A DNA stretch of 64,000 nucleotides from Chitinophaga pendula. GTDB lineage: Bacteria; Bacteroidota; Bacteroidia; Chitinophagales; Chitinophagaceae. The notes beneath the pieces are model-generated. The model worked only from the letters and a program-made list of their open reading frames with translations. It ran no database searches and was not told where the DNA came from. Positions 22,087 through 40,823 of this stretch are shown piece by piece; position 1 is the stretch's first letter; every line of letters starts with the position of its first letter. Location: positions 1,550,001-1,614,000 of the forward strand of contig NZ_CP077769.1 in the NCBI RefSeq assembly GCF_020386615.1, in the 5' to 3' direction. The position numbers and the translations under genes were made by a program.

Positions 22087-22263
22087 TGTAATATTCCTAT
22101 AGCATTCCTGTATCATTCCTGTATCATTCGTATATCATTTGTATATCCAACCCATATCCAAACTTATACAATAGGTATACAACGACTATACCGCACCTAT
22201 ACAATGACTATAGGATCACTATAGGATGCCTATACAACGCTTATACAACGCTTATACGAGACT
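22087..22263. repeat. array of sixteen 11-bp TATA-phased repeats
   Basis: 177 bp that divide into 16 consecutive 11-mers plus one inserted base (after the seventh unit). Nearly every unit begins TATA or TGTA. Units drift from TGTATCATTCC / TATATCATTTG on the left through TATATCCAACC to TATACAACGAC, TATAGGATGCC and TATACAACGCT on the right. The last full units include two identical TATACAACGCT copies. It fills the intergenic region between the divergent thr operon and hmgA and encodes nothing obvious. It is not a CRISPR array (no spacers). Confidence 0.88.
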
Positions 22264-22334: not shown

Positions 22335-22366
22335 TTTGTCAGATGCAACAGGAAATTGTACATTTG
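22335..22366 (+). promoter_or_regulatory. consensus promoter of the hmgA leader
   Basis: TTTG (22335-22338), 20 bp, TACATTTG (22359-22366). This is an exact match to the Bacteroidota consensus. Transcription should start only about 10 bases before the leader ATG at 22384. Confidence 0.8.
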
Positions 22367-22383: not shown

Positions 22384-22488
22384 ATGCCTTATTTCCGCAA
22401 TTTTACATATCACATCGATAAGCGCAGATGGAAGTACTACTTCCTGCTGGCCACGCTGGCTATGAATGGGGCATCCCCCGCCAGATAA
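22384..22488 (+). CDS. leader peptide of hmgA, Tyr/Phe-rich
   Basis: A 34-codon ORF with ATG 17 bases after a consensus -7 element. It begins MPYFRNFTYHIDKRRW and continues KYYFLLATLAMNGASPAR, stop TAA. Residues 17-27 (KYYFLLATLAM) match the leader of the 4-hydroxyphenylpyruvate dioxygenase gene at the same residue numbers, with four synonymous codon differences and one substitution. The pattern of change and the position argue that the peptide itself is selected. It probably regulates hmgA, 50 bp downstream, in response to tyrosine or a related metabolite. Confidence 0.75.
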   Translation: MPYFRNFTYHIDKRRWKYYFLLATLAMNGASPAR

Positions 22489-22514
22489 TCCGTTACGCCC
22501 TTTCTTTTTCTTTC
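22456..22514 (+). promoter_or_regulatory. candidate attenuator at the end of the hmgA leader
   Basis: GGGG (22468-22471) can pair with CCCC just after it, or GGGGC (22468-22472) can pair with GCCC (22497-22500), which is followed at once by a pyrimidine tract of 14 bases with 11 T. CTGGC (22456-22460) and GCCAG (22480-22484) can also close an outer stem. The pairings exclude one another, as in an attenuator, but the stems are short. Confidence 0.45.
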
Positions 22515-22537
22515 ATCACCATTACAATCCACTATTT

Positions 22538-23695
22538 ATGCCTCATTATCATAAACTGGGTCAGATCCCCCATAAACGGCATACGCAATTCCGCAAGCCC
22601 GATGGTAGCCTTTATTCAGAACAATTGTTCTCTACAGAAGGCTTCTCCTCTCACTACTCCTTGTTGTACCACTGCCACCCACCTACCGAGATCATCCGTG
22701 TCGATGAACCTTACAGCGTAGCACCCAAAGTGGCAGAAGAGAAAATGCTCAAACATCGCAGCTTCCAGGGATTCTCCATACAACCGCAGGACGATTTCCT
22801 GCAAAGCCGCAAACCCGTGCTCGTCAACAGCGATTGCCATATCGTACTGGCCGCACCGCGCATAAGCATGCAGGACTATTTCTATAAAAATGCCGACGCC
22901 GACGAAATGATCTTCGTACACGAAGGCAGCGGCACCCTGCACACACAATACGGACAGCTGACCTTCGGATATGGCGATTACCTCGTCATCCCAAGAGGTA
23001 CCATCTACCAGATATCTTTCGATACCGCAGACAACCGCCTCTTTATCGTAGAATCATTCAGCCCCATACGCTATCCTAAACGTTATCTCAGCCATTATGG
23101 CCAGCTGCTCGAACACGCTCCCTTCTGCGAACGCGATATCCGCCAGCCCCAACAGCTCGAAACCATCGATCAGGCCGGCGACTTCCTCATCAATATCAAA
23201 AAGAAAGGCGTCATGTACCCCATCCACTACGCACATCACCCGTTTGATGTTATCGGATGGGATGGCTGCGAATACCCGTTCGCATTCTCCATACACGACT
23301 TCGAACCCATCACCGGCCGCGTTCACCAGCCGCCTCCCGTACACCAGACCTTCGAAGGCAATAACTTCGTCGTATGTTCCTTCTGCCCACGCTTATTCGA
23401 CTATCACCCGCTGGCAATACCCGCTCCATACAATCATAGCAATATCGACAGCGATGAAGTACTGTACTACGTAGATGGCGACTTCATGAGCCGCAAACAT
23501 GTCACCCGCGGCATGATCACCCTCCACCCCGGTGGTATCCCCCATGGACCACATCCCGGAGCCGTAGAAAAAAGCATCGGCGCAAAAGAAACAAAAGAAC
23601 TGGCCGTCATGGTAGATACCTTCCACCCGCTGCAAATCACAGAAGACGCACTGGGCATAGAAGATAAAGCATACGTAATGAGCTGGTCTGAATAA
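22538..23695 (+). CDS. hmgA: homogentisate 1,2-dioxygenase
   Basis: A non-haem Fe(II) cupin enzyme opening the ring of homogentisate to maleylacetoacetate in tyrosine and phenylalanine degradation. The start is MPHYHKLGQIPHKRHTQF; the longer frame overlaps the leader ORF and is unconserved. Length is 385 residues, somewhat short for the family. Motifs: GSGTLHTQYGQLTFGYGDYLVIPRGTIYQI, NFVVCSFCPRLFDYHP, and the iron-site segment GMITLHPGGIPHGPHPGAVEKSIG with ELAVMVDTFHPL. The pathway partner HPPD is at 32905. An unusual leader peptide precedes it. Confidence 0.95.
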   Translation: MPHYHKLGQIPHKRHTQFRKPDGSLYSEQLFSTEGFSSHYSLLYHCHPPTEIIRVDEPYSVAPKVAEEKMLKHRSFQGFSIQPQDDFLQSRKPVLVNSDCHIVLAAPRISMQDYFYKNADADEMIFVHEGSGTLHTQYGQLTFGYGDYLVIPRGTIYQISFDTADNRLFIVESFSPIRYPKRYLSHYGQLLEHAPFCERDIRQPQQLETIDQAGDFLINIKKKGVMYPIHYAHHPFDVIGWDGCEYPFAFSIHDFEPITGRVHQPPPVHQTFEGNNFVVCSFCPRLFDYHPLAIPAPYNHSNIDSDEVLYYVDGDFMSRKHVTRGMITLHPGGIPHGPHPGAVEKSIGAKETKELAVMVDTFHPLQITEDALGIEDKAYVMSWSE

Positions 23696-23710
23696 TTTAT
23701 TTTACTTTTG

Positions 23711-23764
23711 ATGCCCGTAATAAGTAGCATGTACCCATGACACTTATTGCGGGCATTTCTATTT
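23711..23764 (+). terminator. terminator of hmgA
   Basis: Arms ATGCCCGTAATAAGT (23711-23725) and ACTTATTGCGGGCAT (23742-23756), 14 pairs plus one T-G, then TTCTATTTTC. Confidence 0.75.
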
Positions 23765-23788
23765 TCTTCACATAGCAAATTTGTAAGC

Positions 23789-24781
23789 ATGGAATTCAGA
23801 CAACTGGGTGAAAGCGACGTAAAATTATCCGCCATTACCTTCGGCGCATGGGCCATCGGTGGATGGATGTGGGGCGGCGCAGAACGCAAAGACGCAATAG
23901 CTGCCATCAAAGCCTCCATCGATCATGGTATTACCTCCATCGATACAGCCCCCGTATACGGACAAGGAACCAGTGAAGATATCGTAGGAGCAGCCATCAA
24001 AGGCATCGCTCGCGATAAAGTACAACTGGCCACCAAATTCGGCATGCGCTGGGACCTCGCAAAAGGTCAGTTCGGCTTCAAAAGCCAGGACAACAACGGC
24101 AACGATATCGATATCTATAAATATGCAGGCAAAGAAAGCATCATCAAAGAATGCGAAGACAGCCTCAGCAGAATGGGCACCGACTATATCGATCTCTACC
24201 AGATCCACTGGCCCGATAATACCACCCCCATAGAAGAATCCTTCGAAGCCGTACTCCGCCTGCAGGAACAGGGAAAGATCCGCGCAGCAGGAGTATCCAA
24301 CTACAGCGTAGAACAAATGCAGGCGGCTGAAAAAGTGATCTCCCTCGCCTCCAATCAGATCCCATTCAGCATGGTAGAACGCTCCTACGAAGACAACGTA
24401 ATACCTTACAGCATCCAACATAAAAAAGGAATACTGGCATATAGCCCCCTCCAAAGAGGTATCCTCACCGGCAAGATCAAACGCGATCACAAATTCAGTA
24501 ATGGCGACACCCGCGCCGACTCAAAATTCTATACACCGGAAAATATCGATCGCATCAACGCATTCCTCGCTGCCATCAAACCAATGGCCGAAAGCAAAAA
24601 TGCAACACTGGCACAACTCGTGATCCGATGGACCATCGAACACCCAGGCATCACCGTAGCACTCGTAGGCGCCCGCAACGAAGAACAAGCCCTCCAGAAT
24701 GCCAAAGCCTTCGAAGTGAAACTGAGCGCAGAAGAGATCGACTTTATCAACAAACATCTCGCACAACTGCAACTGGTATAA
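23789..24781 (+). CDS. aldo/keto reductase
   Basis: A 330-residue NADPH-dependent TIM-barrel oxidoreductase. The start is MEFRQLGESDVKLSAITFG; an upstream ATG lies inside the preceding terminator. Catalytic tetrad: Asp and Tyr in SIDTAPVYGQGTSE, Lys in VQLATKFGMRW, His in DLYQIHWPD. A cofactor-binding end AHPGITVALVGARNEEQ-like is present. The subfamily resembles sugar- or general stress-type AKRs (YhdN/GSP69); the substrate is unknown. A terminator precedes and follows it, so it is monocistronic. Confidence 0.9.
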   Translation: MEFRQLGESDVKLSAITFGAWAIGGWMWGGAERKDAIAAIKASIDHGITSIDTAPVYGQGTSEDIVGAAIKGIARDKVQLATKFGMRWDLAKGQFGFKSQDNNGNDIDIYKYAGKESIIKECEDSLSRMGTDYIDLYQIHWPDNTTPIEESFEAVLRLQEQGKIRAAGVSNYSVEQMQAAEKVISLASNQIPFSMVERSYEDNVIPYSIQHKKGILAYSPLQRGILTGKIKRDHKFSNGDTRADSKFYTPENIDRINAFLAAIKPMAESKNATLAQLVIRWTIEHPGITVALVGARNEEQALQNAKAFEVKLSAEEIDFINKHLAQLQLV

Positions 24782-24807
24782 AACACCTTTATATAGCTAT
24801 ATAAAAC

Positions 24808-24847
24808 ACGGCAAAAGCATTACACTGCTTTTGCCGTACTATTTTTA
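24808..24847 (+). terminator. terminator of the aldo/keto reductase gene
   Basis: ACGGCAAAAGC (24808-24818), loop, GCTTTTGCCGT (24827-24837), then ACTATTTTTA. Confidence 0.85.
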
Positions 24848-24957
24848 CCCCCATAATCAATTAAGTGTTAATTAGACAACTATGAACACTGTATTAAGAA
24901 TCCCTTAAAATTCCATTAAAGCACCACAACAACCCCATAGCATAATAATTTCAACAT

Positions 24958-24965
24958 TATCTTTG
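24958..24965 (+). promoter_or_regulatory. -7 element upstream of the acetolactate decarboxylase gene
   Basis: TATCTTTG matches TAnnTTTG exactly, but no TTTG lies 19-21 bp upstream. It would give a 5' leader of about 200 nt before 25176. Confidence 0.4.
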
Positions 24966-25103
24966 ACGCGAATTAAGGCACAACATCATACGGCCCCTGC
25001 TCCCGTATCTTGCCAACCTTATTATAAGTAGCTGAAAAACCAATCCTCGTGCATCATACCAATAGCATTCAATTCCGTCTATCGTTCACATACCTACAAT
25101 CTG

Positions 25104-25155
25104 CCTGATGGCCCTCCATCAGGTAACCGCAGGCAATGGTCCTTGCCATTGCCTG
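25104..25155 (+). promoter_or_regulatory. two perfect hairpins in the leader of the acetolactate decarboxylase gene
   Basis: CCTGATGG / CCATCAGG (25104-25123, loop CCCT) and CAGGCAATGG / CCATTGCCTG (25130-25155, loop of 6) stand six bases apart and end 20 bases before the ATG. A 16-codon ORF from ATG 25108 to TAA 25158 (MALHQVTAGNGPCHCL) runs exactly across both. No T run follows, so a translational or RNA-stability role is likelier than termination. Confidence 0.6.
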
Positions 25156-25175
25156 TAACTTTCAAAACATAAGAT

Positions 25176-25982
25176 ATGAACTACAAACTACTCCTCACCA
25201 TACTGATAGTACCCACTGCGTTATTTGCCCAGGTAACTAAAAAACAACCCGCCCCCGGCAACAAATCACGTACACTACTGACCGCAGGTATAGCGGGTGG
25301 ATTGATCGGCGGATTGTATGATGGCCTGTATCCCGTCAGCATACTGAAAGCCAACGGCGACTTCGGCCTGGGTGCCCCAGATAAAATTGATGGAGAACTC
25401 GTCATGTTCAAAGGAAAAGTATACCAAACACAAGCCTCCGGACAAACATTCGAAGTCACCAACGACCCACTCATACCATTCGCTATGGTCAACTACTTCC
25501 ATGCCGACCACTCCGTTAAGATACCAGCCGGCATGAACAAACCAGCATTCTTTCATTGCCTCGATAGCCTGCTCACCAATCCCAACGGATTGTACGCAAT
25601 CCATATCAAAGGCCGCTTCGCTAAAATGCGCACCCGCGCCTTCCCGCCAAGCGAACCTCCCTATCCCGCCCTGTCTGCCATACTCGACAAACAACACTTT
25701 TTCGAATATACCGCCACCTCCGGCGATCTCATAGGATACCGGCTACCAGCATTTATGGATAATACCAATATATCCGGATATCACTTTCACTACCTGTCCG
25801 ATTCCAAAAAACAAGGCGGACATATGGTAGATCTCTATACCGATGACATTACTGTCGAAATATCCGAACTCGATAGCTACACCGTATTGGTACCCACCAA
25901 AAACGCCGCCTTCGATCATTTCGATTTCAAAAAAGATAGGGGAGAAGACATCAAAAGCGTAGAAAGAGGAGCCAAAAAATAA
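25176..25982 (+). CDS. exported alpha-acetolactate decarboxylase
   Basis: A zinc enzyme converting 2-acetolactate to acetoin. It has a signal peptide (MNYKLLLTILIVPTALFAQ) and so is predicted to be periplasmic or secreted. Family motifs: FGLGAPDKIDGELVMFKGKVYQT, VNYFHADHSVKIP, NPNGLYAIHIKGRFAKMRTRAFPP, and the zinc site GYHFHYLSDSKKQGGH with three His. The extracellular location means its substrate must leave the cell or arise outside; acetolactate synthase is not nearby. GH81 follows 172 bp downstream. Confidence 0.88.
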   Translation: MNYKLLLTILIVPTALFAQVTKKQPAPGNKSRTLLTAGIAGGLIGGLYDGLYPVSILKANGDFGLGAPDKIDGELVMFKGKVYQTQASGQTFEVTNDPLIPFAMVNYFHADHSVKIPAGMNKPAFFHCLDSLLTNPNGLYAIHIKGRFAKMRTRAFPPSEPPYPALSAILDKQHFFEYTATSGDLIGYRLPAFMDNTNISGYHFHYLSDSKKQGGHMVDLYTDDITVEISELDSYTVLVPTKNAAFDHFDFKKDRGEDIKSVERGAKK

Positions 25983-26154
25983 CACCATATTCATATCCTA
26001 CATAAACCACAACATCTAACCTACCCGTGTAACGCTGCCGCTCCAGCTGGTACTGCATATACAGCTACCGGCCGGAAATAATATGCTCCTTTAATACCCG
26101 TACCAATAAAAAACAACTACAACTGCCAACACAACCAACCTAAACACATATACC

Positions 26155-29100
26155 ATGAAAACCGTGAAATTTAGCTTATGCGCCTTACTCATTTTGGGTG
26201 GCATAGCTCGGACAACAGCGCAGACTGTCGTCCCCGTCGGCGCAGGTAGCTACGCCGCTTACCCGCCCGCCGGCCTATCCTCAGAAGATGGCCCCGGCTC
26301 CGTCGAACGATTCGCCTTCGAACGCCCCATCTATGTCGCCAAAGACAACAAAAAGGCCATCCCCACCAACGACTGGTGGACCGACCTGGTCGTTAGTGGC
26401 AACAAAACCGGTAAACTGTGGATCGCTCCGCTTGTCGTCGAACCAAAAGAAAATGGACTCAACGTATTCTTTCCGAACAACTACGAAGTAGATGCCAAAA
26501 GAGCTGGCATGATCCTCGGACCCCAGTTGCAGATCAGCGCCAATGGATACCAACCGGATAAAGCATTTGCAAAAGATTGGTCAGATTGGGGCCTGATCAT
26601 GTCCCAGCAAGATAGCGCACATAATACCAGTATCGATGTTACCATGGCACAAGGACAACCTTTCGTCTGGTATCAGACCCATGGCATCAATCCCGAATTC
26701 TCGATGGATGGAGAGGCACCCGCCTATCTCCACCAAGATGGCAGTACCGTCGAATTTCCCACCACAGCCCCCTTCATCATCAAAACCCGTGACAGGTACC
26801 TCGGATTACACTTCGACAATAAAACTACCGCAGAGATACAGGGACAACAATACGTAGTCATCGACCTGGGACACTCACAACCTATTACCAGGGTCACAAT
26901 CAACTGGGAAAACGCCTTCGCTTCCGGATATTACCTGCAGACATCCGACGATAGCATCCACTGGCAAACAGTATTCTCCGAGATCAAAGGCGATGGAAAC
27001 CTGGACGACATATCACTAAGCAAAGCAGCGGGCAAATATATCCGCCTCCAGCTTACCAATAAAGCTACTATCTTCGGTTATTCCATATGGGAAATGAGCG
27101 TCTATAACAAAGAACAACTGATCTCCCTGCGCCAACCCGTTACCGTCTCCTCCATACAAGGCTACTATATCGGTACCAACGTGAACGATGGCAACATTAA
27201 CTCCCGTTGGGGCTCCGATCCGGCAATAACCACCCGCCTCGTCCTCAACAACCATAACCAGGATGCCTTTTTTGTACTGTCAGCACTACCCGCTTTAACC
27301 GATCTGCCGACTTTCGATCAGTACGCCTGCAATAGACCCACCGATACAAAATTGAGCTACCGGTACGATGCCGCCGCAGGTAAAGTATACTCCTACTGGA
27401 ACATTACCACACAAAACCTCCGGGGAGGAACAAATGGTCCGGTTATGCAGGGATTCCTGCCACACTTATACGCCAACGCTGAGCATAACATACAATTTGC
27501 CGGATATAACTACCGGAATATCCGTGGTATCATCAAAACAGCCATCGGCAACTCATTCGCCTTCACCTACAATTTTGATGGCATATTACCTACCTACTCC
27601 GCACCGTTCAGAGACACCTCAGATGCCCATCCCTACGATCCTTCCCTCATGTTCTCCTTACTTAGTAAATATTCCAGGGTAAAAGGATATGGTGCAGATA
27701 CCTACTGGGGTGGAAAAGACCTCGTCAACCTGGCTAAAAATACCTTGATAGCAAAAGAACTGCATCATCAATCCTATCAGACACTAAAAGAAAAAACAAA
27801 AGCCGCACTCGTCGACTGGCTCACTTATACACCGGGTGAACCTTATCATTATTTCGTCCGCTATGACCGATGGGGCGCAATAGTCGGCTTCAACGAAAGC
27901 TACTGGTCCTACGCATTTACCGACAACCATTTCCACTACGGATACCTCATACTGGCTAGCGCCCTGTATGGCATGACCGATCCCGATTTCCTGCAGCAAT
28001 ATGGAGAAATGATCAAACAGGTCGCAAAACAATATGCCAACTGGGATCGCGCGGATAATCGCTTCCCCTTCCTGCGCACCTTCAGTCCCTGGGCCGGACA
28101 TAGCTACGCCGGCGGCATCAGCTCCCCTAATGGCAACAACCAGGAGTCATCCTCCGAATCTATGCAGTCATGGATCGGCCTGTTCATCCTCGGCGATCTC
28201 CTCAATGATCAGGAAATCAAAGATGCCGCCGCCTTCGGATATTCCAGCGAATCATATGCCTGCCTCGAATATTGGTTCGATTGGAAAAAAAGAAACCTGC
28301 CCGCAGGACTTAACTACAACATGATCGGCATGCTCTTCGATCAGGCCGCCATACATGCCAAATACTTCGGTGGCCCGGATGCATACGTACATGGTATCCA
28401 ATACCTGCCCGTAAATCCCGGATTCAAATACCTCACCAGAGATACCGCCTGGGCAAAACGCGAATACGCCGATATGCTCCGCGAAACCATCGCCGAAGAT
28501 GGCCTCAAAGAAGAAGCTGACCTGGGCGTCGACTGGGCTGGCGTCATGCTGGGATTCCGGCAACTGTTCGACCCGGCATATACCGCCGCTTATATAGACA
28601 AAAACAGACAACTGGCTGAATCCAGCGATAAATACATACTCAAAGATGTAACCGCCAGCATGACCTATTTCTACACGCATGCAGACCAAAACCTCGGCCG
28701 CTTCTCTACTAACTTCCGTACCGACTTCCCCTTGAGCAGCGTATTCGAAAAAAATGGAACGTTCAGCCATGCAGTCGCTTACAACAGCACCAAAAGCACC
28801 CGCAACTGCAACATCTACAACAGCGCCGGCGCTCTCATCGCATCATTCCCCGTACCTGCCGCTACATTGGTAACTTATCCCTCACTGCCCGCCTATGGCA
28901 ATGCACCCACCGGTTGCTACGACCTGCTCCCCGCCAGCGCTGTCGCCTCCTCCGGAAACGCAGATGCCGCTATAGATGGCGATCCAGGCTCCCGATGGGA
29001 AAGCAAATTCGAAGATCCTCAACAACTCACCGTAGACCTGGGAACCTCCGCTCATGTCAGCGAAGTAACCCTCTCCTGGGAAGCTGCCAACGCGAAAAAC

Positions 29101-30360
29101 TACTACCTCCTCGCTTCCAAAGACAGCCTCCACTGGGACACTCTGGCCGTGAAAACGAATATGCCGCTGGGAAACCGGATAGATACTATTACCAACCTCG
29201 ACTACACCGGCCGCTACCTCAAAATGCTGGGCACCGCCAGGAACACCCCTTGGGGATACTCCATCTTTGAATGCAAAATATGCGGCACCGTTACAACACC
29301 TGCTGAACCGGAAGTAATACTGCCCGCCTTAATACAGGCAGAAGACTACACCAGAATGAATGGTGTACAAACAGAATCTTGTGCAGATGGCGGAGGAGGA
29401 GAGAACATCGGATACATCGATACCGGCGACTGGATGGAATACAAAATATACACACCGGCAACGGACGACTACCAGCTGAAATTACGTATCGCTAGCCCCG
29501 ATAGCACAGGTAAAGTTACCGTACTGCTCGATGGACAGAAAAAATATACCTTCAACGTCCCTAATACAGGCGCCTGGCAATCCTGGAAAACACTGATAGC
29601 ATCCATCTCATTGCCCGCCGGTGATCACATCATCAGATTGCTGGCAGAAAATGGACAGTACAACGTGAACTGGCTCGATCTCAGGATACCCTTCAAAGGA
29701 TTTTCCACACATATCGAAGCAGAAGACTATACCGCCATGTCAGGCATACAAACAGAACAGACATACGACTTGGAAGGTAATCTCAACGTTGGCTGGATAG
29801 ACAACGGCGACTGGATGGACTATCAGGTCAACTTACCGCATGCAGGCGAATACATCGTGAAATACCGCGTGTCCGCTGCCTACAACCAGGGCGGACAACT
29901 CCTGCTCCTGTCCGGCAACCAGGCATTAGACACCGTCAATATCCCGGATACAAAAGGCTGGCAGAACTGGACTACCGTCAATGGCAAACTAAACATAGAT
30001 ACCGCAGGTACCTACACCTTCCGCTTAAAGGCAACTACCTCCGGATTCAATATCAACTGGTGGGAAATACAGGAAAAAGAAACATGGGCGAAAAATCGCT
30101 CCGCTTTCATGACCTGGGGAAAACCCCCGGTTGTCGCATCCGGAAAATCAGCCCTTAAGATATATCCAAATCCCGCTTCAACTTTGGTACACCTGCTATC
30201 AGATAAACAGACCTGGTACTACGTACTGAATGTACAGGGCCGGATAGTAAAACAAGGAAAGCTCGTAACAGGAGATAACGTGATAGAGATCAATGGATTG
30301 TTGCCTGGTATCTACTTCATAAAAGTAACAGACCGGTCTTATAAGCTGATGATAGAATAA
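26155..30360 (+). CDS. secreted GH81 endo-1,3-beta-glucanase with CBMs and T9SS tail
   Basis: A 1401-residue modular enzyme for fungal-type beta-1,3-glucan. Order: signal peptide (1-22, ending ARTTAQ); GH81 N-terminal sandwich beginning PTNDWWTDLV; an inserted discoidin-like domain (about 228-360) whose halves are in reversed order; the GH81 catalytic part with DNHFHYGYL and PWAGHSYAGG...GNNQESSSESMQSW (acidic catalytic residues); a normal F5/8 type C domain (about 920-1045); two CBM6-like domains starting IQAEDYTRMNG and IEAEDYTAMSG, each with GDWM; and a T9SS sorting domain LKIYPNPAS...GIYFIKV. It is probably secreted across the outer membrane by type IX secretion. Confidence 0.92.
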   Translation: MKTVKFSLCALLILGGIARTTAQTVVPVGAGSYAAYPPAGLSSEDGPGSVERFAFERPIYVAKDNKKAIPTNDWWTDLVVSGNKTGKLWIAPLVVEPKENGLNVFFPNNYEVDAKRAGMILGPQLQISANGYQPDKAFAKDWSDWGLIMSQQDSAHNTSIDVTMAQGQPFVWYQTHGINPEFSMDGEAPAYLHQDGSTVEFPTTAPFIIKTRDRYLGLHFDNKTTAEIQGQQYVVIDLGHSQPITRVTINWENAFASGYYLQTSDDSIHWQTVFSEIKGDGNLDDISLSKAAGKYIRLQLTNKATIFGYSIWEMSVYNKEQLISLRQPVTVSSIQGYYIGTNVNDGNINSRWGSDPAITTRLVLNNHNQDAFFVLSALPALTDLPTFDQYACNRPTDTKLSYRYDAAAGKVYSYWNITTQNLRGGTNGPVMQGFLPHLYANAEHNIQFAGYNYRNIRGIIKTAIGNSFAFTYNFDGILPTYSAPFRDTSDAHPYDPSLMFSLLSKYSRVKGYGADTYWGGKDLVNLAKNTLIAKELHHQSYQTLKEKTKAALVDWLTYTPGEPYHYFVRYDRWGAIVGFNESYWSYAFTDNHFHYGYLILASALYGMTDPDFLQQYGEMIKQVAKQYANWDRADNRFPFLRTFSPWAGHSYAGGISSPNGNNQESSSESMQSWIGLFILGDLLNDQEIKDAAAFGYSSESYACLEYWFDWKKRNLPAGLNYNMIGMLFDQAAIHAKYFGGPDAYVHGIQYLPVNPGFKYLTRDTAWAKREYADMLRETIAEDGLKEEADLGVDWAGVMLGFRQLFDPAYTAAYIDKNRQLAESSDKYILKDVTASMTYFYTHADQNLGRFSTNFRTDFPLSSVFEKNGTFSHAVAYNSTKSTRNCNIYNSAGALIASFPVPAATLVTYPSLPAYGNAPTGCYDLLPASAVASSGNADAAIDGDPGSRWESKFEDPQQLTVDLGTSAHVSEVTLSWEAANAKNYYLLASKDSLHWDTLAVKTNMPLGNRIDTITNLDYTGRYLKMLGTARNTPWGYSIFECKICGTVTTPAEPEVILPALIQAEDYTRMNGVQTESCADGGGGENIGYIDTGDWMEYKIYTPATDDYQLKLRIASPDSTGKVTVLLDGQKKYTFNVPNTGAWQSWKTLIASISLPAGDHIIRLLAENGQYNVNWLDLRIPFKGFSTHIEAEDYTAMSGIQTEQTYDLEGNLNVGWIDNGDWMDYQVNLPHAGEYIVKYRVSAAYNQGGQLLLLSGNQALDTVNIPDTKGWQNWTTVNGKLNIDTAGTYTFRLKATTSGFNINWWEIQEKETWAKNRSAFMTWGKPPVVASGKSALKIYPNPASTLVHLLSDKQTWYYVLNVQGRIVKQGKLVTGDNVIEINGLLPGIYFIKVTDRSYKLMIE

Positions 30361-30407
30361 TCACTCGGCTATAAGTACCGGTCCGCTGGATGTATCTTGT
30401 AATACTG

Positions 30408-32399
30408 CTACTTCAGATGCTGGGCAAAAAATCCCATCATGGCTTTGTAAAAAGTAATGGAATTATCCTCATGATGAAAGCCATGCCCTTCATTATAACG
30501 CACCATATAAGGTACATCCAGCCCTTTCGCCCGCAACTGCCGTACCATCTGGTCCGACTCCTGAATATTCACCCGGGGATCATTCGCGCCTTGCACAATG
30601 AATAAAGGTTTGGTGATCTTATCAATGTTCAGCGCAGGAGATACTGCCTTCATAATCTCCTGGTCCGCCGCCGACTCCGCATCATACCACTGCTCATACA
30701 CTTGTTTCAGAAATGGTTTCCAGTAAGGAGGGAAGGCCTTAAAGAACGTGAATAGGTTAGAGACGCCCACATAGTCCACTCCGCAGGCATACAGGTCCGG
30801 TGTCTTCACCAGGCTGCCCAGCGTCGCCAGGCCACCATAACTACCACCGTGGATACCGATCTTTCCGGGTTGTGCCCATCCCTTCTTGATAGCATACTGC
30901 ACCCCGTCCTCCAAATCGTTCAGCATATTACGGCCAATCTGTTTACTTCCCGCCAGAAAGAACTGTTTACCATATCCGCCGGAACCGCGATAGTTCACTT
31001 GCAACACCGCATATCCACGGCTGGCAAACAACTGCGCCGCAAAATCAAATCCCCAGCTATCCCTTACACCGTAAGGCCCACCATGTGGATACACGATCAT
31101 CGGCAACGGTTGCCCCTTAGGCGCATTCGCCGGCAACGTAATATAACCGTGCACCGTCAGCCCATCCCTCGCAGTAAAAGAAAACGGCCTCGACGCACTC
31201 ATCTCCGGCTCTTTCAGGTTAGGCATCAGGTCCAACATCTTCTCCAGCTTGCCGGAAGCTACATCGTAAGTATAATAAGCACCGTACAACCGGTCGCTGC
31301 TCACAAACAACAGGTATTTATCTTCCTTTAACGTAGCAGCCGATATGCTCACACTCCTGTCGCCGATCTCCTTTTTGAACCGCGCATACAACCGCTTAAA
31401 ATAAGCACTCACCGGTACCAGCTCCGCCTTATCCCCATCATAACTATAGTAGTCGATCTCGTAGTTACGGGCACGGGAGGTACCTATACCGCCCGCATCA
31501 AACACCGGGTGCCCGAACAATGTCTTGATCACCTTACGCACAGAAAGATCGTACAACTGTATCACCGACTTGTCCGTCTCCAGGTTGGAAAGCACATATG
31601 CCCGGTGTCCCTTCGGATCAGTATAATCAAAGTCCAAGATGCTGAAGTCGTTACGCCAGTCCGTACGCGCTACCTCGCGGAAATCCGTCTCCCCGGGTGC
31701 ACGATACATCTGCACATTGGTCGTACCATTTAACTGCCGGCTATAACCGCGTACAAAACCGTCCTTGTCGATATCATAACCCATAATCGGGTTCTCCTTG
31801 TCCTTATTCTCCATCAGCTTCTCCAACTGCCCGTTGACAATATTCAGCTTGAATGGCTCAAAAATCTCAGGATCCTCCTTGTTCATCGTCACCACCACAT
31901 GATCCGGGTCCGATACAATACGATAAATACCCTCTACCTTGATGTTTTTAAATGGGGTCAGTGATTGCTGATGACTGCCGTCTACATCAGCGACAAACAA
32001 CTCATAGTTCTCATCCCCGCCCTTATCCTGCAGGTACAGCAACCGGTTGTTATATCCCCATACATAGGTAGATACCAGTTGCTCCCCTTCCGTAATAGCC
32101 CGCGTCACCTCACCGGTCGCCAGCTCCTTCACATATACATGCCGCTTCGCATTAGCATCCTTCTCCCGGTAAGACAAATACTTACCGTCCGGAGATAAAC
32201 TAAAACCACTCTGTTTAGGCTTGGCAAAAAAATCCGATACCTGGTACCGGAAACTACCTTTGTCATAATGCCCCATTTGCTCAAATACCGCCTCAGGGGA
32301 GGGGAGGGTAGTGTCTCCGGGTTTCGGCTGCGCCTGCACCCCTAAAGATGCGCCAGCCGTCACCAATGTGCTGATAATAATTTGCATCGCGCTGCTCAT
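30408..32399 (-). CDS. S9 family serine peptidase (prolyl oligopeptidase type), exported
   Basis: A 663-residue alpha/beta-hydrolase peptidase with a signal peptide (ending GVQAQ). A beta-propeller domain (about 60-390) is followed by the hydrolase domain. Nucleophile Ser is in GIHGGSYGGLAT, Asp in VQGANDPRVNIQESDQM, His in YNEGHGFHHED. This resembles acylaminoacyl- or dipeptidyl-peptidase-like S9C enzymes acting on short peptides in the periplasm. It is convergent with the GH81 gene and monocistronic. Confidence 0.92.
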   Translation of the reverse strand: MSSAMQIIISTLVTAGASLGVQAQPKPGDTTLPSPEAVFEQMGHYDKGSFRYQVSDFFAKPKQSGFSLSPDGKYLSYREKDANAKRHVYVKELATGEVTRAITEGEQLVSTYVWGYNNRLLYLQDKGGDENYELFVADVDGSHQQSLTPFKNIKVEGIYRIVSDPDHVVVTMNKEDPEIFEPFKLNIVNGQLEKLMENKDKENPIMGYDIDKDGFVRGYSRQLNGTTNVQMYRAPGETDFREVARTDWRNDFSILDFDYTDPKGHRAYVLSNLETDKSVIQLYDLSVRKVIKTLFGHPVFDAGGIGTSRARNYEIDYYSYDGDKAELVPVSAYFKRLYARFKKEIGDRSVSISAATLKEDKYLLFVSSDRLYGAYYTYDVASGKLEKMLDLMPNLKEPEMSASRPFSFTARDGLTVHGYITLPANAPKGQPLPMIVYPHGGPYGVRDSWGFDFAAQLFASRGYAVLQVNYRGSGGYGKQFFLAGSKQIGRNMLNDLEDGVQYAIKKGWAQPGKIGIHGGSYGGLATLGSLVKTPDLYACGVDYVGVSNLFTFFKAFPPYWKPFLKQVYEQWYDAESAADQEIMKAVSPALNIDKITKPLFIVQGANDPRVNIQESDQMVRQLRAKGLDVPYMVRYNEGHGFHHEDNSITFYKAMMGFFAQHLK

Positions 32400-32572
32400 A
32401 ATTCTGAAAATAATACGGTAATGTGTAAAATTAACTGGACTTGATAGTAATACAGGTTAACCGAAGTTAGAAATTAGTTATTCAACGTTAATATTTAAAA
32501 ATTGTTAGCCCGATCTTGATTAGTACAAATTTCAGATTTGGAATTTCATAGTTTTAATTGTAGCTTGCGAGT

Positions 32573-32671
32573 ATGCACGACCTGCATTCATATTATCCTC
32601 ACACAGACCAACGTCACAAGAAATACTACTTCTTGATGGCAACGCTCGCTATGGATTCGTTAACGGCTTAA
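32573..32671 (+). CDS. leader peptide of the HPPD gene, Tyr-rich
   Basis: A 32-codon ORF, ATG to TAA: MHDLHSYYPHTDQRHK then KYYFLMATLAMDSLTA. Residues 17-27 (KYYFLMATLAM) repeat the hmgA leader core at the same position. Codons differ synonymously for Lys17, Leu21, Ala23 and Leu25. It ends 11 bases before a terminator hairpin. The following 195 bp up to HPPD (32710-32904) contain no other ORF I would support; upstream 32400-32572 holds only weak promoter-like TTTG and TAnnTT pieces. Confidence 0.75.
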   Translation: MHDLHSYYPHTDQRHKKYYFLMATLAMDSLTA

Positions 32672-32709
32672 GGCCGGCACCTGCTACCTCAACGGTGGCT
32701 TTTCTTTTT
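32664..32709 (+). terminator. leader terminator (attenuator) before the HPPD gene
   Basis: GCTACC (32683-32688), loop TCAAC, GGTGGC (32694-32699), followed by TTTTCTTTTT. A small stem CGGC/GCCG with loop TTAAG covers the leader stop codon (32664-32676). Its position between leader peptide and gene is that of an attenuator. Confidence 0.7.
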
Positions 32710-32904: not shown

Positions 32905-34029
32905 ATGGATTTGGCAACAGCACCTGCGGCAACTGAGACCCGCGATTTTCTTCCCCTCAACGGTACTGACTATGTAGAGTTCTATGTAGGGAATGCCAAA
33001 CAGGCGGCGCATTATTACAAAACGGCTTTTGGCTTTCAGTCAGTAGCCTATGCCGGCCCTGAAACCGGCGTGAAAGATCGCGCCTCCTATGTTTTGGTAC
33101 AAAACAAACTCCGCTTCGTCCTCACCACCCCACTGCAACCAGGTAACGAGATCTCCACGCACATCGAAAAACATGGCGATGGCGTAAAAGTACTCGCCCT
33201 CTGGGTAGACGACGCTCGCGCAGCCTACGAAGAAACCATCAAAAGAGGCGGCCGGTCCTACCTCGAACCCGTAGTCGAAAAAGACGAATTCGGCGAAGTA
33301 GTACGCAGCGGTATCTACACCTACGGCGAAACCGTACACCTCTTCATCGAACGCAAAAACTACAATGGCCCCTTCCTGCCCGGCTACAAAGAATGGAAAA
33401 CCACCTACAACCCCGCCGATGCAGGCCTCCTGCACGTAGACCACTGCGTAGGCAACGTAGGCTGGAACGAAATGAACACCTGGGTAGACTACTACGCCAA
33501 CGTAATGGGATTCCGCAACCTCATCTCCTTCGATGATAGCGACATCTCCACAGAATACTCCGCCCTCATGAGTAAAGTAATGAGCAACGGCAACGGTAGA
33601 GTAAAATTCCCCATCAACGAACCGGCGGAAGGCAAAAAGAAATCCCAGATCGAAGAATACCTCGACTTCTACGGAGGTCCCGGTGTACAACACGTCGCCA
33701 TCGCCACCAACGATATCATCCGCACCGTCTCCGATCTGCAAAACAGAGGCGTGGAATTCCTCAAAGTACCTGCCTCCTATTACGAAGAACTGCTCGATAG
33801 GGTAGGCCAGATAGATGAAGATATAGCCCCCCTGCGCGAACTCGGCATCCTCGTAGACCGCGACGACGAAGGATACCTCCTCCAGATCTTCACCAAACCC
33901 GTACAAGATCGCCCCACCGTATTCTTTGAGATCATCCAGCGCAAAGGCGCCCAATCCTTCGGAAAAGGCAACTTTAAAGCACTGTTTGAATCCATCGAAC
34001 GCGAACAGGCACTACGTGGCAACCTTTGA
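32905..34029 (+). CDS. hppD: 4-hydroxyphenylpyruvate dioxygenase
   Basis: An Fe(II) enzyme converting 4-hydroxyphenylpyruvate to homogentisate, the step before HmgA. Length is 374 residues, normal. Two vicinal-oxygen-chelate domains are seen: the first from VEFYVGNAKQAAHYYKTAFGF, the second from VDHCVGNVGWNEMNTWVDYY. Iron ligands are His180 in LHVDHCVGN, His in GPGVQHVAIAT and Glu in PTVFFEIIQRKG. It ends KGNFKALFESIEREQALRGNL, typical of the family. It is separated from hmgA by about 9 kb but shares its leader-peptide type. Confidence 0.97.
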   Translation: MDLATAPAATETRDFLPLNGTDYVEFYVGNAKQAAHYYKTAFGFQSVAYAGPETGVKDRASYVLVQNKLRFVLTTPLQPGNEISTHIEKHGDGVKVLALWVDDARAAYEETIKRGGRSYLEPVVEKDEFGEVVRSGIYTYGETVHLFIERKNYNGPFLPGYKEWKTTYNPADAGLLHVDHCVGNVGWNEMNTWVDYYANVMGFRNLISFDDSDISTEYSALMSKVMSNGNGRVKFPINEPAEGKKKSQIEEYLDFYGGPGVQHVAIATNDIIRTVSDLQNRGVEFLKVPASYYEELLDRVGQIDEDIAPLRELGILVDRDDEGYLLQIFTKPVQDRPTVFFEIIQRKGAQSFGKGNFKALFESIEREQALRGNL

Positions 34030-37206: not shown

Positions 37207-37346
37207 TTACACCCACAGCAACAGCATAGTGTTAAATGTAATCGTAATTCCGTCCGATCCACTCCCCCGTGCGGGAAGACTTAGCTGCCAGTTACAGCAA
37301 AACGGTTCATTCCACGTTTTTTCTTCACGTCTTAAATTGTATTGCC

Positions 37347-39044
37347 ATGAATCTTAATATAAAAGCGCAGGAGCAGAACACCTACGATGCCATCGTCATA
37401 GGATCAGGTGTTAGCGGTGGTTGGGCTGCCAAAGAGCTGACCGAAAAAGGATTAAAAGTATTAATGCTCGATAGAGGTAAGCCCCTCGAGCATGTTAAAG
37501 ACTACGACACCGCTACCAAAGATCCCTGGGAATTCCCACATCGTGGCCGCCTTACCGTAGACCAACGCGAAACACATCCCAAACTAAGCAGGGACTACCC
37601 ATATAGCGAACATAACGAGAAGTTCTGGATCAAAGATGTCGATAGCCCATACAACGAAGTAGAACGCTTCGACTGGTACCGTCCTGATATCGTAGGGGGC
37701 AAATCCATCATGTGGGGCCGCCAGTCCTATCGCCTCAGCGACCTCGATTTCGAAGCCAACCTCAAAGATGGCATCGCCGTCGACTGGCCCATCCGCTACA
37801 AAGACATCGCCCCCTGGTACGACTATGTAGAACGGTTCGCCGGTATCAGCGGCACCCGCGAAGGCCTGCCACAACTGCCCGATGGCCAGTTCCAGCCAGG
37901 AATGGAAATGAACTGCGTAGAGAAAGAGGTGAAGAAAAGGATCGAATCCAGCTTCCAGGGCCGTATCATGACCATCGGTCGCGTAGCCAACCTCACACAA
38001 CCACTGCCCGGCCGTACCGCCTGCCAGTTCCGTAACCTCTGCAGCCGCGGATGCCCATTCGGCGCTTACTTCAGCACACAGTCATCTACACTGCCCGCTG
38101 CCGTAAAAACAGGAAACCTCACCCTGCGACCCGATTCCATCGTAAACAGCATCGTCTACGATGAACAAAAAGGAAAAGCCACCGGCGTGCGCGTCATCGA
38201 CAAACATACCAAAGAAATGATCGAATATCACGCCAAGATCATATTCGTCAATGGCTCCACACTGGGTAGCACCTTCGTACTCATGAACTCCACTTCCAAC
38301 CGGTTCCCCAATGGACTCGGCAACGACAGCGGCGTACTGGGTAAATACCTTATGGACCACCACTTCCGTACAGGCGCCTCCGGTATAGCCGAAGGCTTCG
38401 ACGATAAATACCTCTTCGGACGCCGTGCCAACGGTATCTATATCCCCCGCTATCGCAACGTCGGCAGCGACAAACGCGATTATATCCGTGGCTTTGGATA
38501 CCAGGGTGGCGCAGGTCGCGGCGGTTGGAGCCGCGGTATCGCCGAAATGGGCGTAGGTAAAGACTTCAAAGAAATGCTGACAGAACCCGGCACCTGGTCC
38601 ATGGGACTCGGTGGATTCGGAGAATGCCTGCCCTATGAAGATAACCTCGTCACTTTGGATACCTCCACCAAAGATGCCTGGGGCCAACCCGTACTGAAAT
38701 TCAACGCCAAGTTCAGAGAAAATGAAATGAAAATGCGCAAAGACATGGCCAACGATGCCGCCGAAATGCTCGAAGCTGCCGGCATCAAAAATGTAAAAAC
38801 ATACGATAACGGCTCCTGGCCCGGAATGGCCATCCACGAAATGGGTACCGCACGCATGGGCCGCGATCCTAAATCCTCCATCCTCAACGGATGGAATCAG
38901 GTGCATACCGTGAAAAATGTCTTCGTGACAGATGGCGCCTCCATGACCTCCGCCTCCTGCGTAAACCCGTCACTCACATACATGGCGCTCACCGCCAGAG
39001 CAGCGGACTACGCAGTCAAAGAACTGAAGAAAGGAAATATCTAG
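37347..39044 (+). CDS. GMC oxidoreductase with iron-sulfur motif, copy 1
   Basis: A 565-residue FAD dehydrogenase acting on a sugar or other polyol. The Rossmann start is YDAIVIGSGVSGGWAAKEL. The motif CQFRNLCSRGC (C-x5-C-x3-C) has the spacing of the 3Fe-4S ligands in Burkholderia FAD-glucose dehydrogenase alpha subunits. The catalytic His region is AIHEMGTARMG, followed by ...VTDGASMTSASCVNPSLTYMALTARAADYA. There is no signal peptide; export with the gamma subunit is inferred. The start is ATG at 37347; an upstream ATG adds unconserved residues. The cytochrome c subunit is not nearby. Confidence 0.9.
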   Translation: MNLNIKAQEQNTYDAIVIGSGVSGGWAAKELTEKGLKVLMLDRGKPLEHVKDYDTATKDPWEFPHRGRLTVDQRETHPKLSRDYPYSEHNEKFWIKDVDSPYNEVERFDWYRPDIVGGKSIMWGRQSYRLSDLDFEANLKDGIAVDWPIRYKDIAPWYDYVERFAGISGTREGLPQLPDGQFQPGMEMNCVEKEVKKRIESSFQGRIMTIGRVANLTQPLPGRTACQFRNLCSRGCPFGAYFSTQSSTLPAAVKTGNLTLRPDSIVNSIVYDEQKGKATGVRVIDKHTKEMIEYHAKIIFVNGSTLGSTFVLMNSTSNRFPNGLGNDSGVLGKYLMDHHFRTGASGIAEGFDDKYLFGRRANGIYIPRYRNVGSDKRDYIRGFGYQGGAGRGGWSRGIAEMGVGKDFKEMLTEPGTWSMGLGGFGECLPYEDNLVTLDTSTKDAWGQPVLKFNAKFRENEMKMRKDMANDAAEMLEAAGIKNVKTYDNGSWPGMAIHEMGTARMGRDPKSSILNGWNQVHTVKNVFVTDGASMTSASCVNPSLTYMALTARAADYAVKELKKGNI

Positions 39045-39125
39045 CATTCATTATAAGTGCTGATAGGCAGCAGGGTAGCCTCACCGCACCCGCCTGACCT
39101 GTCAGCACTTTATCATTCTGCAACA

Positions 39126-40823
39126 ATGAATCTTAACATCAGAGCAGTAGAACAAAATACCTACGACGCCATCGTGGTAGGCTCCGGTATCAGCGGCGGC
39201 TGGGCCGCTAAAGAACTGTGCGAAAAAGGCCTGAAAACCATCGTACTAGAAAGAGGTCGCAACGTAGAACATGTGAAAGACTACACCACCGCCATGAAAG
39301 CACCCTGGGAATTCGAACACCGCCTCGGATTCACCAACGAAATGAAAGAAAACTTCCCCATCCAGAGCCGCTGCTACGCCTTCGATGAAGCCACCCAGCA
39401 ATTCTGGGTCAACGACAAAGAAAATCCTTATAACGAAATAAAACCGTTCAACTGGCTACGGGGCTACCAGGTAGGAGGCAGATCCCTCATGTGGGGCCGC
39501 CAATGCTATCGCTGGAGCGATGTCGACTTCGAAGCCAATGCCAAAGATGGACATGGCGTAGACTGGCCCATCCGCTACCGCGACATCGAACCGTGGTACA
39601 GCTATGTAGAAGAATTCGTCGGCGTCAGCGGACAAGCTGAAGGCCTCCCTCAACTACCCGATGGACATTTCCTGCCTGCCATGGAAATGAACTGCCTCGA
39701 AAAACATGTCGCCGGTCGCATCAAAGCACACTTTAACGATCGCATCATGACCATCGGCAGAGCTGCACACCTCACCAAAGGTCTCCATGGCCGCGGCCCC
39801 TGCCAGTACCGTAACCTGTGCGCCAGAGGATGCCCCTTCACCGGTTACTTCAGCAGCAACGGCGCTACCTTGCCGGCCGCCGCCAAAACTGGCAACCTCA
39901 CCTTGCGCCCCGATGCCGTAGTACTCGAAGTACTATACGACGACAAAAAACAAAAAGCCACCGGCGTCCGTATCCTCGATACGCATACCATGCAGACCAT
40001 CGAATACTACGCCAATATCATCTTCCTAAACGCATCTACCCTCGGCACCACCCAGATATTGCTTAGCTCCGTATCAAGCCGCTTCCCCAACGGGTTCGGC
40101 AACGACAGCGAACAGGTAGGACACAACCTCATGGACCACCACTACGGCGTCGGCGCCTGGGGCTCCTTCGATGGCTTTAAAGACCAATACTACAGCAGCG
40201 GACGCCGCCCCAACGGCATCTATATCCCCCGCTTCCGCAACATCAGCGAAGCCACCAAACGCACCGACTACGTACGGGGATTCGGATACCAAGGGGGCGC
40301 AGATCGCTCCAGAGGTACCACCTGGGATGGCATCGGTGCCGCCTTCAAAGAAGCACAGACAGATCTGGGAGATTGGAGCATGGGCGTCGGCTCCTGGGGC
40401 GAACACCTGCCTTATTATGAAAATAAAGCCACCCTCAACAAAGACAAAAAAGATAAATACGGCCTGCCCACCCTCGACATCGACTGCGCCTTCAAAGAAA
40501 ACGAAATGACCATGAGAAAAGACATGCTCGAAAGCGCCAAAGAAATGCTCGAAGCCGCAGGTCTCAAAAATGTAGGCGGCTACGACGATATGCCGCCCCC
40601 CGGACACTGTATCCACGAAATGGGTACCGCACGCATGGGAAAAGATCCTAAAACCTCCGTCCTCAATGGCAACAACCAGTTGCATGCCGTGAAGAACGTA
40701 TTCATCACAGATGGCTCCTGCATGAGCTCATCCGCCTGCCAGAACCCGTCTATCACCTACATGGCGCTGACAGCAAGAGCATGCGACTTCGCCGTGAAAG
40801 AGGCCAAAAAAGGAAATATCTGA
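39126..40823 (+). CDS. GMC oxidoreductase with iron-sulfur motif, copy 2
   Basis: Tandem paralogue of the preceding gene, of exactly the same length (565 residues) and the same opening MNLNI(K/R)A(Q/V)EQNTYDAIV. It has C-x5-C-x3-C as CQYRNLCARGC, the catalytic region CIHEMGTARMG, and ends VKEAKKGNI against VKELKKGNI in copy 1. Substrate-pocket segments differ, for example LGDWSMGVGSWGEHLPYYENKATLN against TWSMGLGGFGECLPYEDNLVTLD, suggesting different sugars. Start ATG is chosen by alignment to copy 1. Confidence 0.9.
   Translation: MNLNIRAVEQNTYDAIVVGSGISGGWAAKELCEKGLKTIVLERGRNVEHVKDYTTAMKAPWEFEHRLGFTNEMKENFPIQSRCYAFDEATQQFWVNDKENPYNEIKPFNWLRGYQVGGRSLMWGRQCYRWSDVDFEANAKDGHGVDWPIRYRDIEPWYSYVEEFVGVSGQAEGLPQLPDGHFLPAMEMNCLEKHVAGRIKAHFNDRIMTIGRAAHLTKGLHGRGPCQYRNLCARGCPFTGYFSSNGATLPAAAKTGNLTLRPDAVVLEVLYDDKKQKATGVRILDTHTMQTIEYYANIIFLNASTLGTTQILLSSVSSRFPNGFGNDSEQVGHNLMDHHYGVGAWGSFDGFKDQYYSSGRRPNGIYIPRFRNISEATKRTDYVRGFGYQGGADRSRGTTWDGIGAAFKEAQTDLGDWSMGVGSWGEHLPYYENKATLNKDKKDKYGLPTLDIDCAFKENEMTMRKDMLESAKEMLEAAGLKNVGGYDDMPPPGHCIHEMGTARMGKDPKTSVLNGNNQLHAVKNVFITDGSCMSSSACQNPSITYMALTARACDFAVKEAKKGNI

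Follow-up and report, generated by a model that had tools for sequence, protein, structure and literature searches.

The homogentisate and 4-hydroxyphenylpyruvate dioxygenase genes (hmgA and hppD) of Chitinophaga pendula are each preceded by a short open reading frame (ORF), and the two ORFs belong to two related families of leader peptides of about 29 residues found within the Chitinophagaceae, a family of soil and water bacteria. Both lie within the 64,000-nucleotide stretch analysed here, hereafter the window (assembly GCF_020386615.1, contig NZ_CP077769.1, positions 1,550,001 to 1,614,000). The hmgA leader (22384-22488, forward strand; MPYFRNFTYHIDKRRWKYYFLLATLAMNGASPAR) is a 34-residue peptide of the HmgA type, bearing RNFTYHIDKRRWKYYFLLATLAM, and the hppD leader (32573-32671, forward strand; MHDLHSYYPHTDQRHKKYYFLMATLAMDSLTA) is a 32-residue peptide representing the Chitinophaga form of the HppD type. 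A prior sequence-only reading had noted both ORFs and the stretch KYYFLxATLAM at residues 17-27 of each peptide; both observations hold, as do the four synonymous differences within that stretch (Lys17 AAG/AAA, Leu21 CTG/TTG, Ala23 GCC/GCA and Leu25 CTG/CTC) and the single Leu/Met exchange. With moderate confidence, we regard these peptides as a cis-acting family in which a decision made by the ribosome on the nascent chain would control the downstream tyrosine-breakdown gene in response to a tyrosine-related input.

Two leader types in the Chitinophagaceae

A protein search of the organism's own 7.66-Mb genome with the window hppD leader returns the hmgA leader (E 9.4e-4), so the similarity between the two exceeds chance; neither that search (next matches at E 1.27 and above) nor a degenerate-codon pattern search of the same genome gave a convincing third copy. 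The HmgA type has the consensus MPxxRNF[TI]YxIDKRxWKYxFL and the HppD type MxPDYPHKxFxDxRxxYxLLMxxLAMDS, the latter reading MRPDYPHKLFSDKRxxYCLLMEALAMDS in genera other than Chitinophaga. Aligned as profiles over DKR-Y-LL-L, the two types match at E 6e-4 with a probability of just 28%; their kinship is likely, not certain, and the Chitinophaga hppD leader looks intermediate between them. The KYYFLxATLAM stretch did not survive as a signature of the family, for what is shared is DxR...Y..L[LM]..L, and hmgA leaders outside Chitinophaga mostly carry KY[YIVC]FLL..LE or similar. The description 'Tyr-rich' suits the two window peptides, but the second position of KYY (residue 19) is not conserved, being Tyr in 57 of 142 hmgA leaders and mostly Ile, Val or Cys in the others.

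Homologous leaders occur across the family, which answers the question of whether related genomes hold conserved upstream ORFs at all. A match to the 32-residue hppD leader (E up to 0.1) is present in 28 of 40 Chitinophaga genomes, which together gave 31 matches; the 30 of these with loci stand upstream of HppD or HmgA. At 17 of the 20 Chitinophaga hmgA loci inspected there is no ATG at the expected place, and instead a TTG at a conserved position precedes a peptide resembling LSISLKYTSNSQLNYYFLMATLAMDS. When 117 Chitinophagaceae genomes were searched by profile, 74 had a match (E up to 0.1), the strong ones mostly before HmgA and of the form MPFFRNFTYWIDKRRWKYIFLLATLELS. HmgA-type leaders occur in 54 of these genomes at E up to 0.01 (52 of them below 1e-13) and HppD-type leaders in 68; the HppD type alone covers at least 67 of 101 sampled genera, and a genome may have up to three or four leader places. 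In 296 genomes of the phylum, no match outside the family is clear (E below 1e-3), the best there (E 0.0057 and 0.0062) being weak and taken as noise. The exact pattern RNF[TI]YxxDKRxWKY occurs at no fewer than 118 loci in public genomes, and the 80 titled ones belong to Chitinophagaceae genera (Chitinophaga, Niastella, Ferruginibacter, Flavisolibacter, Sediminibacterium and others) or carry looser labels (Bacteroidetes or Sphingobacteriales bacterium). After removal of identical sites, the leader set comprised 306 members, of which 151 HmgA-type and 110 HppD-type rows could be anchored; the diverged Chitinophaga leaders fall mostly outside these 261 rows.

The peptides match nothing in Pfam or NCBIfam and nothing significantly in PDB, where no chain fell below E 0.3 for the HmgA-type profile or below E 10 for the HppD-type profile. 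As these databases revealed no homology to described arrest peptides, the likeness to TnaC and SpeFL discussed below is one of working alike, not of membership. Within the titles and abstract openings of open-licence literature, the extent of the literature covered, no Bacteroidota leader was described for hmgA, hppD or tyrosine phenol-lyase.

Selection on the peptide sequence

Comparison of the proportions of synonymous (pS) and nonsynonymous (pN) differences bears out the earlier claim that the peptide, and not the RNA alone, is under selection. For codons 2-28 of 140 hmgA leaders, pS is 0.85, pN 0.21 and pN/pS 0.25, next to a pN/pS of 0.23 for codons 21-60 of hmgA itself; for 82 hppD leaders, pS is 0.80 and pN/pS 0.29, next to 0.47 for the hppD gene. 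Because pN/pS is low, synonymous sites are saturated and the two shifted frames give pN/pS of 1.1-1.5, the leaders are conserved as peptides. In the hmgA leaders, Arg5, Asn6, Asp12, Lys13, Arg14, Lys17 and Leu21 are conserved as strongly as the aromatic residues, and in the hppD leaders P3 and D4 are invariant, P6 is present in 85%, and the conserved block extends to residue 28. Part of the hmgA set was fetched by a pattern in which residues 5-7, 9, 12-14 and 16-18 are fixed and the choice at residues 8 and 11 is limited, so conservation at those positions is partly by construction; free of this bias are the pS/pN contrast, residues 19-28, and an alignment of 20 members found by profile before the pattern scan (A3), which has the same invariant residues. 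A strong synonymous bias was also seen, Tyr19 of hmgA leaders being TAT in 52 of 57 cases and His7 of hppD leaders CAT in 64 of 69.

Start codons are ATG in 142 and TTG in nine of 151 HmgA-type leaders, and ATG in 96, TTG in 12 and CTG in two of 110 HppD-type leaders, the TTG and CTG starts being assigned by position. Lengths are narrowly distributed, with 29-31 residues in 111/151 HmgA-type and 78/110 HppD-type leaders, a minimum of 27, and tails to 45 and 90 residues; such a narrow range would be unexpected if the N-terminal block alone mattered. The possibility that the leader derives from a duplicated 5' end of hmgA, both starting MP... and having KR at residues 13-14, was discarded when a profile comparison gave no match.

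Position of the leaders on the transcript

The leaders keep a consistent position. HmgA follows on the same strand, 31-313 nucleotides past the leader stop, in 113 of the 118 pattern loci listed, and the other five have at most 163 nucleotides of DNA left downstream. HppD follows 61 of 74 HppD-type leaders (E up to 1e-5, 117 genomes), 59 of them by coordinates and two as partial genes at contig ends; seen from the genes, a leader is present, by coordinates, at 59 of 103 listed HppD genes, HmgA and HppD each being found in 102 of the 117 genomes. In four genomes of one genus (L357, L362, L378 and L381) the fetched stretch has, beyond hppD and at its very edge, a leader of the HmgA type, and it does not include hmgA; here hppD and hmgA are likely adjacent, each with its own leader. 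A strict rule that the leader occurs only where the gene is first in its operon was abandoned as a mere trend, a same-strand ORF lying just upstream in 24 of 39 leaderless hmgA loci vs 51 of 134 with a leader. Two genomes of one genus have, upstream of HmgA (L275 in G350 and L307 in G441), short ORFs that resemble each other, differ from the leaders above and end in LVA.LVFAQY; they may be a separate or diverged kind of leader.

Bacteroidota promoters follow a -33/-7 consensus. In the window, the putative promoter of the hmgA leader transcript (22335-22366, forward strand) consists of TTTG at 22335, a 20-base spacer and TACATTTG at 22359, and the -7-like box before the hppD leader (TAGTTTTA, 32549-32556, forward strand) is weaker. 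Across the family, TAnnTTT lies within 100 nucleotides upstream of 130/141 hmgA leaders (48.6 in shuffles), mostly 20-29 nucleotides before the start, and of 77/81 hppD leaders (30.4 in shuffles), mostly 10-19 nucleotides before it. Between leader and gene the box shows no enrichment (48/142 vs 54.6 in shuffles for hmgA, 28/81 vs 29.9 for hppD). Because the -7 box lies just upstream of the leader and is unenriched in the spacer, the leader is probably the first coding region on the hmgA and hppD mRNAs. In the window, hmgA starts 49 nucleotides and hppD 233 nucleotides past the leader stop; the median gaps in the family are 69 (hmgA) and 83 (hppD) nucleotides.

Terminator-like hairpins mark part of the family. 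In the TTG-type Chitinophaga hmgA form (16 loci, one with ATG), a hairpin with a T-run is present in 15/16 loci at 13-16 nucleotides past the first base of the stop codon, vs 1.9 in shuffles at any place from 0 to 40, and the stems have several different sequences. Elsewhere such structures are enriched but in a minority, at 19/150 HmgA-type leaders vs 5.5 in shuffles and 19/82 hppD leaders vs 3.0; for the remaining HppD-type leaders (2/28 vs 1.4) they are not above chance. A general intrinsic terminator was rejected on this ground, the hairpin being near-constant in the one Chitinophaga hmgA form alone. The window has one such element at hppD (32683-32709, forward strand), a hairpin of six pairs and a five-base loop (32683-32699) followed by TTTTCTTTTT, which begins 14 nucleotides past the first base of the leader's stop codon; its 47-nucleotide segment is no more stable than shuffles (z -0.66), and the region has three such sites vs 1.8 expected. 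By eye, no conserved antiterminator that would alternate with the terminator was seen at the loci inspected. A Rho-site signature based on low G was considered; the G content of the spacers (0.123-0.153) hardly differs from that of control upstream regions (0.141).

Targets beyond hmgA and hppD

The earlier view of the leader as a reusable cis element is upheld, family members preceding hmgA, hppD and further genes; the target set is wider than tyrosine degradation. Of the 74 HppD-type leaders at E up to 1e-5, 15 do not adjoin a listed HppD, two of them standing before partial HppD genes and 13 elsewhere. Tyrosine phenol-lyase follows a leader at six loci (L338, L339, L363, L383, L399 and L400), and the L338 product scores 762.5 against TIGR02618 (cut-off 720.7). 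Of the six, L338 and L339 lie in genomes (G364 and G354) where neither HppD nor HmgA has a match; the other four tyrosine phenol-lyase genomes lie outside those searches. Leaders before this unrelated enzyme in genomes without hppD or hmgA matches strengthen the tyrosine link. No leader was seen before tryptophanase when match lists were compared by eye (117 genomes). In the Chitinophagaceae, tyrosine phenol-lyase and a tryptophanase-like paralogue of about 47% identity often lie in tandem or divergently (for example, G331:C3:113978-116870).

Other targets are phosphoenolpyruvate (PEP) carboxykinase (L342, L390 and, by sequence, L391), PEP synthase (L345), a histidine-decarboxylase-like enzyme of the pyridoxal phosphate-dependent kind (L340 and, by sequence, L377), a class I aminotransferase (L387), an MFS transporter (L334 and, by sequence, L370), LytTR-domain proteins (L336, L341 and, by sequence, L333 and L388) and a histidine-kinase-like protein (L332). 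No clear target was found at L335, L343, L344, L369 and L384, and a contig end cuts L346 and L392. At both L335 and L369, in different genomes, the next large same-strand ORF begins about 1.26 kb downstream of the leader; it presumably encodes a ribonucleotide-reductase-like protein. Sixty extra loci were hand-picked from top and multi-match rows among the matches listed, so the target proportions are no census, and L394 is the same place as L367. With PEP carboxykinase and PEP synthase among the targets, the signal could be broader than tyrosine, for example growth on amino acids.

Proposed mechanism and known systems

In the mechanism we propose, the leader stands at the 5' end of a tyrosine-breakdown mRNA, or very close to it, and would be translated first; conserved residues of the nascent peptide (IDKRxWKYxFL or PDYPxKxFxDxRxxY..LL..LA) would set ribosome pausing near the leader end, and the behaviour of the ribosome would then set expression of the downstream gene. 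In the one Chitinophaga hmgA form, and perhaps at window hppD, this last step may run through conditional termination at the hairpin and T-run about 14 nucleotides past the leader stop; at loci lacking a hairpin, Rho or translational control may serve. The most likely input would be tyrosine or a metabolite derived from it, which would switch the genes on.

Arrest of the ribosome, its ligand and the direction of control are proposed by analogy with TnaC and SpeFL, and the step that follows arrest is likewise a proposal. TnaC, the leader of the Escherichia coli tna operon, senses free L-Trp and serves one operon; SpeFL, a leader of about 30 residues, senses L-ornithine; and trpL and hisL are classical amino-acid attenuators. 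The Y-x-I-D of the leader family may resemble an F-x-I-D in TnaC. The Chitinophagaceae leaders are, like TnaC and SpeFL, short ORFs of conserved amino-acid sequence in the 5' leader of a catabolic gene, for TnaC that of an aromatic-amino-acid degradation gene, and both systems are precedents for ligand-dependent arrest, at termination in the case of SpeFL (PMC8429421). Aromatic and Asp residues inside the peptide are conserved here and essential in TnaC (PMC8429421). Unlike TnaC, the present family is copied before several genes; unlike SpeFL, to which no sequence relation was found, it belongs to a different phylum.

Several observations weigh against the proposed mechanism. A minority of targets fall outside the enzymes of tyrosine (LytTR regulators, MFS transporters, histidine-decarboxylase-like enzymes, PEP carboxykinase and PEP synthase), and a leader stands at just five of the 30 best tyrosine phenol-lyase loci (379 genomes), all from the two closest genera; of the other 25 loci, 13 follow a same-strand ORF (at least 190 codons, within 120 nucleotides) and the rest have no recognised leader. 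Among the HmgA-positive genomes, 32/102 have neither a strong HmgA-type leader at hmgA nor a leader at hppD, and one hmgA leader (L298, upstream of HmgA in G418, a 1.9-Mb genome) is split by a short insertion with an in-frame stop, its halves remaining in one frame. For HppD-type leaders without an HppD or tyrosine phenol-lyase target, TAnnTTT shows no clear enrichment upstream, with 13/22 vs 10.3 in shuffles (seven vs 1.65 for the stricter TAnnTTTG). Finally, 131/150, 63/82 and 26/28 leaders of the three groups above have no recognisable terminator, and no hairpin lies at 13-16 nucleotides in eight other Chitinophaga hmgA loci, the window's included, or in 8/9 Chitinophaga hppD loci.

Alternative explanations

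A small protein acting in trans, for example by binding an enzyme or a regulator, and sharing the transcript by chance, would be in keeping with the strong protein-level selection, and peTrpL is described as a leader peptide that acts in trans (PMC7298713). Such a protein would have no need of this placement: separate copies stand before hppD and before hmgA, and some genomes place two or three ahead of unrelated genes. The pairing of each target with a leader of its own favours a cis role, and we consider action in trans unlikely.

Codon-counting attenuation, in which a shortage of charged tRNA slows the ribosome at Tyr or Phe codons and the RNA structure switches, might be expected from peptides rich in Tyr, Phe and Trp and from the T-run hairpins after some leaders, and the leader ORF and partial occurrence of hairpins do recall the classical attenuators. 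The leaders differ from these in having no conserved run of codons for the regulated amino acid, in their invariant non-aromatic residues and in targets that degrade the amino acid, for which the usual sign of such control is wrong. Besides the variable Tyr19, Tyr17 is replaced by Phe in 20/82 hppD leaders, and residues other than aromatics are conserved like them, also in A3. Since the tyrosine codons are exchangeable and the non-aromatic residues are not, codon counting is disfavoured, as it was, on the ground of its sign, in the sequence-only reading, and we give it little probability.

Distinctly improbable is a ribosome loader, whereby the leader would raise translation of the next gene by reinitiation, as proposed in PMC4833913. 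Leaders that start near the predicted transcription start and some short gaps (31-50 nucleotides) would suit it; the amino-acid conservation would be needless, and the gaps of 31-313 nucleotides at hmgA compare with a Bacteroidetes gap peak of 11-14 bp (PMC4833913).

We attach a similarly slight probability to a destabilising leader of the MgtL kind, in which the early M-x-P-D-x-P of the HppD type would drop the ribosome at low magnesium or energy under modulation by an ABC-F protein. The conservation of P3, D4 and P6 speaks for it, EPDP in MgtL and dependence on EttA are described (PMC11282234), and an energy signal would be in keeping with PEP carboxykinase and PEP synthase as targets. The likeness to MgtL and other EttA-dependent leaders is limited to this motif, which the HmgA type lacks, and most of the conserved block lies elsewhere, running to residue 28.

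That an RNA or DNA element, and not the peptide, is conserved would fit a leader that is probably transcribed and the hairpins after some leaders, and is highly improbable, being contradicted by the saturated pS of 0.80-0.85 and pN/pS above 1 in the other two frames, with no Rfam match at gathering scores in the whole 64-kb window.

Other features of the window

Both downstream genes lie on the forward strand. hppD (32905-34029) encodes a 374-residue 4-hydroxyphenylpyruvate dioxygenase that scores 452.1 bits against TIGR01263 (cut-off 277). hmgA (22538-23695) encodes a 385-residue homogentisate 1,2-dioxygenase that scores 60.5 against TIGR01015, far under the cut-off of 510.75, and 49.5 against Pfam HgmA_N, above the cut-off of 20.2, and is therefore regarded as a divergent HmgA. 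Positions 22093-22257 hold degenerate 11-bp tandem repeats (ATTCCTATATC and TATACAACGCT units), which lie upstream, between the hmgA promoter and a gene on the opposite strand that we take to be aspartokinase-like. At 37269-40823 on the forward strand are two adjoining, similar ORFs of 591 and 588 residues, presumably a tandem oxidoreductase pair.

Implications for tyrosine breakdown in Bacteroidota

A broader reading, offered tentatively, is that of a leader-peptide regulon, in which one nascent-chain sensor of tyrosine or a derivative would have been copied before many unlinked Chitinophagaceae genes, including those for HppD, HmgA, tyrosine phenol-lyase, PEP carboxykinase, PEP synthase, an aminotransferase, transporters and LytTR regulators. 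The ligand-sensing leader peptides known so far mostly serve a single operon. Were the regulon reading true, the ribosome would do in these bacteria the job that a tyrosine-responsive transcription factor does elsewhere. The family would offer a candidate sensor of tyrosine in the ribosome tunnel, a natural dataset on the evolution of arrest peptides and on their change of targets, and a possible answer to how Bacteroidota control the breakdown of tyrosine.

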